Positions 43,202-45,671 of a stretch of 47,052 bases of DNA are shown one piece after another. The position numbers and the translations under genes are program-made. The notes under the pieces were generated by a model. That model made no database searches, was not told where the DNA came from, and saw nothing but the letters and a program-made list of their open reading frames with translations. Within the stretch, counting starts at the first letter, position 1. Every line of letters begins with the position of its first letter. Origin of the DNA: Candidatus Saccharimonadota bacterium (lineage in GTDB: Bacteria > Patescibacteriota > Saccharimonadia > Saccharimonadales > Saccharimonadaceae); NCBI GenBank assembly GCA_030530605.1, contig JAUMUO010000003.1:1-47052 (forward strand), given 5' to 3'.

Positions 43202-43275
43202 TGGAGGTGCCGACCGGAATTGAACCGGTGTACGCGGTTTTGCAGACCGCTGCGTAACCACTCCGCCACAGCACC
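43202..43275 (-). tRNA. tRNA-Cys (GCA)
   Basis: Acceptor GGTGCTG/CGGCACC, anticodon stem-loop GCGGT-CTGCAAA-ACCGC, T-loop TTCAATT, discriminator T and encoded CCA. 5 nt after tRNA-Leu(TAA), same transcript. Confidence 0.95.
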
Positions 43276-43280
43276 ATGTG

Positions 43281-43367
43281 TGGTGCCCAAGATGGGACTC
43301 GAACCCATAATCCGGTAAAGGAAGCGGATTTTAAGTCCACCGCGTATACCAATTCCGCCACTTGGGC
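43281..43367 (-). tRNA. tRNA-Leu (TAA)
   Basis: Class II with a long variable arm. Acceptor GCCCAAG/CTTGGGC, anticodon stem-loop GTGGA-CTTAAAA-TCCGC, T-loop TTCGAGT, encoded CCA. Promoter TATGGTATAAT ends 10 nt before the 5' end. Confidence 0.95.
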
Positions 43368-43427: not shown

Positions 43428-44156
43428 CTATTTGGTTCCGAAAAGTCTGTCGCCGGCGTCGCCGAGACCCGGGACAATGTAACCATCTTCGTTCAGGCCT
43501 TTGTCCAAGCACCCGGCATAGATTTCCACGTCCGGATGGTTTTTCTGGATGCGATCAACACCCTGGGGTGCAGCAATAATACACATAACCGTGATACTCT
43601 TACAGCCAATATCCTTCATATACTGAATCGCAGCATCGGCAGAGCCACCAGTTGCCAGCATCGGGTCAAGGATAAAGGCTGCCCGTTCCTCCATATCGGA
43701 GGGATGCTTTTTGAAGTACCATACCGGTTCCTTCGTTTCTTCATTGCGGTACATACCAAGATGAGCTACGCGAGACTTCGGGACTACACGCTTGACGGCC
43801 CCAGCCATGCCAAGGCCAGCCCTCAAAATCGGCACAATCACCAATTTTTTACCGGCTATTCTTCTGCCCACAGTCGTGCAAATCGGAGTCTCCACTATGT
43901 AATCTTCCATCTCAAGCTTCTGCATTGCTTCACAACAAATGAGCGTAGCAACCTCCTCTACCAAACACCCAAATTCCGTGCAGTTGACATTCAAATCGCG
44001 CATCATACTGATCTTGTGTGTAATCAATGGGTGCCAGCTTAAAATATGCGTGCCGTGGGCGATTTGTACTTTCTGGTAGCCAACAATCAAGGAATTTTCA
44101 TGCTTCTCAATCTCGGCCCTTTTCTCTTCGGTCAGCTCTTCATTTGGACTTTTCAT
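43428..44156 (-). CDS. upp: uracil phosphoribosyltransferase
   Basis: About 242 aa from ATG 44156, 10 nt after AAAGGGGG; a TTG at 44165 lies 9 nt after AGGAG and is an alternative. It salvages uracil to UMP using PRPP. The PRPP-binding loop is FILDPMLATGGSADAA, the N-terminal part of the fold is GKKLVIVPILRAGLGM, and the uracil-binding flap ends in YIVPGLGDAGDRLFGT. It is ~30 residues longer than Escherichia coli Upp at the N-terminus (KSPNEELTEEKRAEIEKHEN). The leader carries two promoters and an attenuator-like hairpin. Confidence 0.95.
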   Translation of the reverse strand: MKSPNEELTEEKRAEIEKHENSLIVGYQKVQIAHGTHILSWHPLITHKISMMRDLNVNCTEFGCLVEEVATLICCEAMQKLEMEDYIVETPICTTVGRRIAGKKLVIVPILRAGLGMAGAVKRVVPKSRVAHLGMYRNEETKEPVWYFKKHPSDMEERAAFILDPMLATGGSADAAIQYMKDIGCKSITVMCIIAAPQGVDRIQKNHPDVEIYAGCLDKGLNEDGYIVPGLGDAGDRLFGTK

Positions 44157-44165
44157 TAAAACCAA

Positions 44166-44356
44166 TCCCCCTTTCTCCTGTTAATGTACGGTCCACCAGT
44201 TACTGCGGTATATTATACTAGTATTTTTAAGATTTTGCAAGTCTTGCTCCCTAAAAAATGTGGCTCCTCGCAGAAGCCGCATTTCCGTGGTCGGATGTCT
44301 CTCAACTTCATCCGATTTCTGTTTTAATTTTACCACAAGCAGAAAAACTTTGTCAA
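44166..44356 (-). promoter_or_regulatory. two-promoter upp leader with attenuator hairpin
   Basis: P1: TTGACA (44356-44351), 18 nt, TAAAAT (44332-44327, preceded by TGG). P2: TTGCAA (44240-44235), 17 nt, TATAAT (44217-44212). Between them, on the P1 transcript, are a 7-bp hairpin TCGGATG/CATCCGA (44315-44291) and an 8-pair hairpin with one mismatch ending in T6 (44282-44253), which reads as an intrinsic terminator. P1 transcripts that stop there would be about 68 nt. The loop reads TTCTGCGAGG, close to the PyrR-site core TCCnGnGAGG known from Firmicutes. Confidence 0.6.
44253..44320 (-). ncRNA. putative ~68-nt leader RNA upstream of upp
   Basis: Bounded by P1 (TTGACA-18-TAAAAT) and the T6 terminator. 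Two hairpins, no ORF with an SD. Either an attenuated leader or an independent small RNA. Inferred from promoter plus terminator only. Confidence 0.45.
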
Positions 44357-44486
44357 GATTGATTTTTGTACAATTTTATGTTTAGTTTTACACAGGCTCT
44401 AACAGAGAAAAACCGAACACTTTTACCTTGACAAATTCTAGAATTATTCTTTGGACATAAGTAGTGTTATTTGCTATAATCTAAGT

Positions 44487-45671
44487 ATGAATAGAGTGCC
44501 GCTCGCGGAGCGGATGCGTCCGCAAAGTTTAGATGAGGTAATTGGCCAAGATGATATTATCGGCGAGGGCAAGATTTTGACGGAAATCGTCAAAAAGGGC
44601 GAGCCTGTAAACTTAATCTTTTGGGGCCCTCCGGGCACTGGCAAGACTACCTTAGCGAGAATTCTAGCCAAAGAATACAAGGCCGATTTTATTGAGATTT
44701 CCGCAGTGACTTCTGGCAAGAAAGACATTGAGGCAGTGGTGGAGCGAGCCAAACAAAATTGGAATTTACAGGTCAGAACGGTGCTGTTTGTGGATGAGAT
44801 TCACCGTTTCAATAAGGCCCAGCAAGATGCGTTCTTGCCACACGTGGAGTCTGGGTTGATTATCTTAATTGGTGCTACCACTGAAAACCCTTCCTTTGAA
44901 GTTATTTCCCCGCTTTTGTCACGTTCGCGAGTAGTGATAGTAAAATACCTTTCTAAAGATGATATTTTGAAAGTAATTGACCGGGCCTTAAAAGCCGAAA
45001 AGGCTAGCCGAAAAATTGATAAAAAGGCCAAGGATTATCTGGCAGAACTTTCCGGTGGCGACGCTAGGAGCGCACTGGGCGATTTAGAACTGGCATTATC
45101 TCTAGCGGGATCTGGTAAAATCACTATTGATATTGTAAAAGAGGCAGCAGGGCGAAAAGTGCCGGGTTATGATAAGGCTGGGGATGGTCACTATGACAAC
45201 ATTTCGGCTTTTATTAAGTCGATGCGGGGCGGGGATGTGGATGCAGCGCTTTATTACCTGGCGAGGATGGTGGAAGCCGGCGAAGACCCCAAGTTTATCG
45301 CTCGGCGAATGGTGATTTTCGCCTCGGAGGATATTGGGCTGGCTGGAAATGGTGGCCTTCCTATGGCTGTGGCCTGTTTTGAGGCGGTAGAACGGATTGG
45401 AATGCCAGAATCGGGCTTGATTTTAGCCCACACCGTGGTGGCGCTCACAAAGTCCAAGAAATCTCGCGCCACTACTGATGCCTGGTACAAGGCGAAGGAT
45501 CTCGCTCATAAGTCAATGGGGCTACCGGTGCCGATTCACCTGCGCAATGCCCCAACAAAGCTAATGAAGGATTTAGGATTTGGCAAGGGTCAAAAATGGG
45601 AGGCAGGCTTTCATCTTGATAAGCCCTACCTCCCGGACGAGATTTCAGGGGAAAAGATTTTTAAGGATTAG
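44487..45671 (+). CDS. rarA: replication-associated recombination protein RarA (MgsA)
   Basis: 394 aa. AAA+ ATPase: PLAERMRPQSLDEVIGQDD, Walker A GPPGTGKTT, Walker B LFVDEIHRF, sensor 1 IGATTENPSF, sensor 2 GGDARSALGDLE, then the RarA-specific C-terminal tetramerisation domain (RMVIFASEDIGLAG, PMAVACFEAVERIGMPE, PIHLRNAPTKLMKDLGFG). Acts at stalled forks. TGCTATAAT then 6 nt to ATG 44487, leaderless; the in-frame ATG 12 codons earlier lies upstream of the promoter. Tail overlaps 45661 by 11 nt. Confidence 0.96.
   Translation: MNRVPLAERMRPQSLDEVIGQDDIIGEGKILTEIVKKGEPVNLIFWGPPGTGKTTLARILAKEYKADFIEISAVTSGKKDIEAVVERAKQNWNLQVRTVLFVDEIHRFNKAQQDAFLPHVESGLIILIGATTENPSFEVISPLLSRSRVVIVKYLSKDDILKVIDRALKAEKASRKIDKKAKDYLAELSGGDARSALGDLELALSLAGSGKITIDIVKEAAGRKVPGYDKAGDGHYDNISAFIKSMRGGDVDAALYYLARMVEAGEDPKFIARRMVIFASEDIGLAGNGGLPMAVACFEAVERIGMPESGLILAHTVVALTKSKKSRATTDAWYKAKDLAHKSMGLPVPIHLRNAPTKLMKDLGFGKGQKWEAGFHLDKPYLPDEISGEKIFKD

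Follow-up and report, generated by a model that had tools for sequence, protein, structure and literature searches.

The intergenic region in front of upp in the DNA analysed here raises the question of whether its hairpins form a leader that controls upp or belong to a gene of their own. The region lies in a 47-kb piece (47,052 nucleotides, hereafter called the window) of a 678-kb Saccharibacteria genome. A sequence-only reading had proposed pyrimidine-responsive attenuation of upp through a loop resembling the PyrR-binding site and, as an alternative, a small RNA of ~68 nt. Our analysis points to the alternative, which has strong comparative support, although the transcript itself is only predicted. 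We put a probability of roughly 0.85 on the stretch being the gene of a stand-alone small RNA of an apparently undescribed family of two related Saccharibacteria genera.

The layout proposed earlier holds, as promoter P1, a hairpin, a terminator with T6, a second promoter and upp are all found on the minus strand. P1 (44327..44356), the small-RNA promoter, consists of TTGACA and TAAAAT with an 18-nt spacer and a TG before the second hexamer (extended -10). Just 5' of its -35 is an A-rich, UP-element-like block, AAAAATCAAT (44357..44367), which is conserved among 90 members of the family and in the alignment of four upp-linked loci. The predicted small RNA of ~68 nt covers 44253..44320, with the start placed from the -10 and the end from the T run. 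Within it, hairpin 1 (44291..44315) is the conserved core of the family, as judged from covariance matches and covariation, and is made of a 7-bp stem (TCGGATG/CATCCGA) and an 11-nt loop, AAGTTGAGAGA. The loop core TTGAGAG (44299..44305) is the same in 87 of the 90 members. The terminator hairpin and its T6 (44253..44286) are conserved in position and not in sequence. Outside the RNA and 3' of the terminator, P2 (44212..44240; TTGCAA-17-TATAAT) forms a separate promoter for the neighbouring upp (43428..44165), which encodes uracil phosphoribosyltransferase (Pfam PF14681, E 8e-69; NCBIfam TIGR01091, 253 bits against a cut-off of 208). The genes for tRNA-Leu(taa) and tRNA-Cys(gca) (43202..43367, minus strand), a frequent kind of downstream neighbour of the RNA, are here situated beyond upp.

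On the other side, the divergent neighbour is the rarA/mgsA AAA+ ATPase gene (44487..45671, plus strand; Pfam MgsA_C and AAA), for which we chose the start codon at 44487, the listed frame starting at 44451. Its promoter, TGGACA-17-TATAAT (44452-44489, plus strand), stops 6 bases short of the likely ATG, which makes a leaderless rarA mRNA probable. Between P1 and rarA there is a second conserved intergenic block, GTTCGGTTTTTCTCTGTTAGAGCCTGTGTAAAACT (44384-44418, minus strand), which contains a small inverted repeat (CTCT-GTT-AGAG; CCCC-TGTT-GGGG in G543) and is largely kept across the four upp-linked loci.

The predicted 68-nt transcript has a folding energy of -23.4 kcal/mol, whereas its shuffled versions average -13.3 (z -3.9) and two in 200 of them fold equally well; the fold of the whole leader up to upp is unexceptional (z -1.3; 21 of 200 shuffles as good). 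A simple scan of 43800-45000 finds six promoter-like sites where 1.5 are expected and one terminator-like site where 1.3 are expected, which means that the terminator by itself does not exceed chance. Its support comes from the relatives, most of which also have a terminator-like structure after the element. The feature that stands above chance is the conserved loop of hairpin 1, which the sequence-only reading had not singled out.

A DNA similarity search of 60 genomes with the leader returned, besides the window, only chance-level matches (best E 0.008). In one locus, L008, both P1 and hairpin 1 are retained; the stem shows compensating changes, the loop core is unchanged and the terminator differs. 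The upp of L008 is 68% identical to that of the window, and G543, which belongs to the same genus as the window, carries an element identical to the one in L008. A pattern of the loop plus its flanks matches in 7 of 392 genomes of the order. Four of the six matches besides the window share the promoter-hairpin layout; L042 and L048, which lie opposite long open frames, were dropped. The covariance model R2, built from six members, matches in 127 of 394 genomes of the taxonomic family, five of which have two matches at E<=0.05. The 30 best R2 places and 60 further ones, taken mostly by score order, make up the 90 members; weaker R2 places were not used, nor was one situated at a contig end, and L008 and L057, having the same sequence, are counted once.

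The model built from these 90 members, R3, shows how the family is distributed. It matches in 100 of 392 genomes of the order, namely in 84 of the 88 that belong to the genus (one per species, roughly 600-1100 kb) and in 14 of 20 of the sister genus g32, one of them weakly (G209, E 0.014). The two matches among the 284 other genomes of the order are both weak (E 0.008 and 0.018) and are no more than chance gives at E<=0.02. These group denominators were counted from the genome list of the pattern search, which has the same draw size. R3 finds no match in four genomes of the genus (G220, G307, G373 and G403), and G357 is the sole genome of the genus with a second, weak match. The E-values of the covariance searches come from a shortened calibration, and the searches of many genomes used stricter filters, which lose weak matches. 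The models contain part of the promoter (-10 region), so their scores do not come from the RNA alone.

Hairpin 1 is a conserved RNA structure with compensating changes. In the fitted alignment (90 members, 86 distinct), 88.2% of the cells of hairpin 1 are paired, against 72.4% in shuffled and 28-45% in slid alignments. Cells changed on both sides number 105 against 28.4 in shuffles of the 86 distinct rows, with a covariation score of 0.53 (against 0.21). Six of the seven pairs show a change on both sides, which is not above shuffles (5.2; 160 of 500). At two of the seven pairs the partners fail to pair in 25 and 40 of the 86 rows, and many members have a mismatch or bulge there. Because a fitted alignment leans towards structure, a model-free stem test was also run on 85 distinct members; it is independent of the covariance models, although its members were found with them. 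Own arms score 20.2, swapped arms 12.9 and shuffled flanks 10.1. None of 5000 arm swaps reaches the own-arm score, and the own partner is in the top tenth for 69 of the 85. A simple stem finder gives 70 distinct 5' arms among the 90 members. In many of the stems, a single mismatch or bulge occurs a few pairs beneath the loop; the window stem has none.

The promoter is conserved along with the hairpin. When the 90 members are aligned on the -10, TAAAAT is kept at 93-100% per position, and the G two bases before it at 94%. In the -35, TTGAC is kept at 85-95% per position and the final A at 68%. The block upstream of the -35 is A-rich with TCAAT (A up to 98%, C 86%). The spacer of P1 is 16 nt in 77 members, 18 nt in nine, including the window, and 17 nt in four. 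A terminator-like structure, called by our own threshold without a chance control, follows 83 of the 89 members with enough sequence, and its distance implies RNAs of about 50-190 nt with a median of about 110 (predicted lengths).

The short form, consisting of hairpin 1 and the terminator, is found in the window, G543, G289 and G372. A scan with CCTAGA-like strings detects a second conserved segment in 49 of the 90 members, and this segment is absent from the window. Its commonest type reads GAGUGU..GUUAU..CACCUAGAAAUU. For analysis, 32 of the 49 were placed in one alignment and 11 in another, and six were left out. By eye, a GGUGG/CCACC stem or pseudoknot is suggested; arm-swap tests do not back it, with 381 and 787 of 2000 swaps as good, and RNAalifold predicts zero pairs for the 32 aligned segments. 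In two long-form members, L130 and L138, the second segment starts with AGGAGGTG, a Shine-Dalgarno-like string, and a later CACCTAGAAA resembles the 16S rRNA tail.

The genes around the RNA vary. A thioredoxin/DsbA-like gene is near it in 74 of the 90 loci (Pfam Thioredoxin_4 in the one tested), and in 71 there is a gene without a Pfam match (one tested), which usually adjoins the thioredoxin/DsbA-like gene and is divergent from the RNA. The first downstream feature is a G5-domain gene in 22 loci, tRNA-Cys in 17 and various others in the rest. Downstream upp occurs in only four of the 90 loci, with rarA divergent each time, and the other 86 have no adjoining upp. Conversely, G007, G029, G032 and G033, four genomes of the genus, bear upp while their RNA gene is on another contig or about 7 kb away. 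The RNA is thus independent of any one downstream gene. Genes for UPRTase are themselves patchy among 60 genomes (nine over the cut-off, six strong matches, one of these partial with a stop). tRNA-Leu and tRNA-Cys follow upp in three of the four upp-linked loci, those with enough sequence. The order in G398 is RNA, tRNA-Cys, tRNA-Leu without upp, and in the window it is RNA, upp, tRNA-Leu, tRNA-Cys; upp seems to have ended up between the RNA gene on one side and the tRNAs on the other.

Other arrangements of upp are also seen. In L038 and L039 (G033 and G032) the end of a rarA-like frame is, by eye, directly upstream of upp and co-directional with it, so that rarA and upp stay neighbours in different arrangements, co-directional there and divergent in the window. 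The upp homologue in L006 (G024:C4:14330-14788) has a partial-length match and in-frame stops and is apparently a decaying gene.

Searches against known families gave no assignment. Rfam 15 has no match on the strand of the element in the window and 15 relative loci, where the gathering score is reached by tRNAs only. Below that score, three matches overlap the element or its promoter, all on the opposite strand: mir-9460 in the window (E 1.4), STnc40 in L079 (37.2 bits, gathering 45, E 0.0043), lying over the terminator and the start of tRNA-Cys, and U7 in L104 (E 9.2), lying over the second segment. As far as the consulted portions of the open-licence literature extend (PMC8321541 included), no description of a Saccharibacteria small RNA of such kind was found. 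This RNA family of two related Saccharibacteria genera is thus apparently new and undescribed, and its kind is that of a small intrinsically terminated RNA.

Our analysis computationally shows a family with about one copy in almost all genomes of the genus, a covarying stem, an invariant loop, a conserved promoter, a usual terminator-like end and independence from upp. The own promoter, 5' hairpin, own terminator and free change of neighbours fit a stand-alone trans-acting small RNA, and the sequence evidence suggests that the element is transcribed and that its RNA acts in trans. A strong P1 would drive the small RNA, the terminator would stop transcription before upp, and upp would use its own promoter. 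Hairpin 1 would be the working part, in which a stem of free sequence holds up the near-invariant, purine-rich loop UUGAGAG. Since the stem changes freely while the loop stays fixed, the loop is probably where a single partner, shared across the genus, makes contact.

The family resembles trans-acting intrinsically terminated bacterial small RNAs in its own promoter, 5' hairpin, terminator and length of roughly 50-190 nt. It differs from them in that the Hfq model has no match in the 30 genomes searched, no target was found, and almost all species of the genus have about one copy. Orphan structured non-coding RNA families, a kind known only from comparative genomics, share with it a covarying stem, an invariant loop, an intergenic place, variable neighbours and the lack of a known partner. 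Unlike them, the present family has no Rfam match and is found in two related genera only.

What the loop contacts is the point on which the leading alternative turns. The RNA could be an antisense regulator whose loop UUGAGAG serves as a seed pairing with CUCUCAA-type sites in mRNAs, which we regard as a serious, if somewhat doubtful, possibility. An invariant loop on a variable stem is usual for seeds, and the family has exactly this. However, the complement is not enriched: in an 8-mer count of one genome, CTCTCAAC occurs 10 times against 16 for the reversed control, and near the starts of adjacent genes the 7-mer CTCTCAA occurs once against 0.8 for permuted 7-mers. The nine CTCTCAAC sites outside the RNA gene were read singly, and none is convincing at a gene start. 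The Hfq model (one model) matches in none of the 30 genomes, against 5 of 14 controls; Hfq-independent pairing, however, exists. Because the complement is not enriched, convincing sites were not found and Hfq has no match, we lean slightly towards a protein or ribonucleoprotein, rather than an mRNA seed site, as the partner of the loop.

A more specific form of such a partnership would make the RNA a housekeeping ribonucleoprotein component specific to these Saccharibacteria, with the UUGAGAG loop docking a conserved protein or the ribosome. This we consider rather unlikely; if true, the RNA would perhaps fill a role for which no standard RNA (for example SRP RNA) is recognisable in these reduced genomes.

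Still less probable is a recruitment of the RNA as cis leader in the upp-linked group (the window, G543, G289 and G372), in which part of the P1 transcripts would continue past the terminator into upp and hairpin 1 would tune the read-through. In its favour, the four upp-linked copies of the 90-member set are all short forms and have the order rarA < RNA > upp. However, upp is preceded by a promoter-like sequence of its own, beyond the terminator, and by eye the P2 interval of the other upp-linked loci also holds one. The terminator hairpin is stable in the fold, and copies without upp have an identical loop core.

The number of copies, about one per genome, and the conserved promoter are also what a strongly diverged housekeeping RNA of the lineage, for example its SRP RNA (or 6S RNA), would be expected to have, and the family is like the small SRP RNA (RF00169) and 6S RNA (RF00013) in both respects. 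The small bacterial SRP RNA model (one model) matches in none of 30 genomes, the window's own (G000) and 29 relatives, against 11 of 14 controls. Nevertheless, we find this identification very unlikely. The architecture of housekeeping SRP and 6S RNAs is a long rod, whereas the present RNA is a hairpin followed by a terminator, without Rfam likeness to either; even at E<=10, neither SRP nor 6S similarity appears in 10 member loci or in the stretch of the window. SRP RNA has a GNRA-type tetraloop with an AGCAG core, and no SRP core is apparent here: a loose test finds an SRP-core-like string in two of the 90 members and AGCAG alone in six. Moreover, the family is seen in two genera only, while the SRP model also fails in 12 other genera searched. 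As a separate observation, the SRP RNA of G000 and its 29 relatives is very diverged, of another type or missing.

The attenuator with which the question began, a PyrR-type, pyrimidine-responsive transcription attenuator of upp, we now regard as extremely improbable. In its favour are the terminator between P1 and upp and a one-mismatch likeness to the PyrR core TCCNGNGAGG, and, like the Firmicutes PyrR attenuators (RF00515), the element has a leader-like place before a pyrimidine salvage gene and a hairpin followed by a terminator. However, the supposed loop, TTCTGCGAGG, is mostly terminator stem with only GCG unpaired in the fold, and likenesses of this grade are at chance level, 23 in the window against 25.7 expected. 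The RF00515 model has no match in the stretch at E<=10 and none in 40 genomes including the window's own, while it matches in 3 of 14 control genomes. The PyrR protein model NF003549 has no match in G000 at E<=0.001; none of the 40 genomes is over its cut-off (weaker matches in 16), against 6 of 14 controls. The ten bases of the supposed loop are not kept in G543, G289 and G372, and neither is the terminator sequence in these other three upp-linked loci. Unlike in the Firmicutes attenuators, there is neither a model match, a PyrR match nor a conserved binding loop, and a separate promoter, P2, follows the terminator and bypasses it. The conserved part, furthermore, is also present where upp is not. 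The sequence-only reading had named the lack of a PyrR homologue and of loop conservation in related leaders as what would refute it; as far as the models see, both are the case, and by these criteria PyrR attenuation is refuted.

A small protein gene in place of an RNA, for which an open frame starting ATGAAGTTGAGAGAC in the window copy might speak, can practically be dismissed, as the stem changes are compensating, there are 70 different 5' arms, and some members, L057 and L058 among them, lack the start codon.

To our knowledge, there is little information on small RNAs, regulatory or structural, from the Candidate Phyla Radiation. The presence of this RNA in 84 of the 88 genomes drawn from the genus, together with a loop that stays invariant while the stem evolves freely, implies that it is very likely under strong selection. 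The 90-member alignment suffices to annotate the RNA elsewhere, and the strictly conserved loop is an immediate bait for finding its partner.
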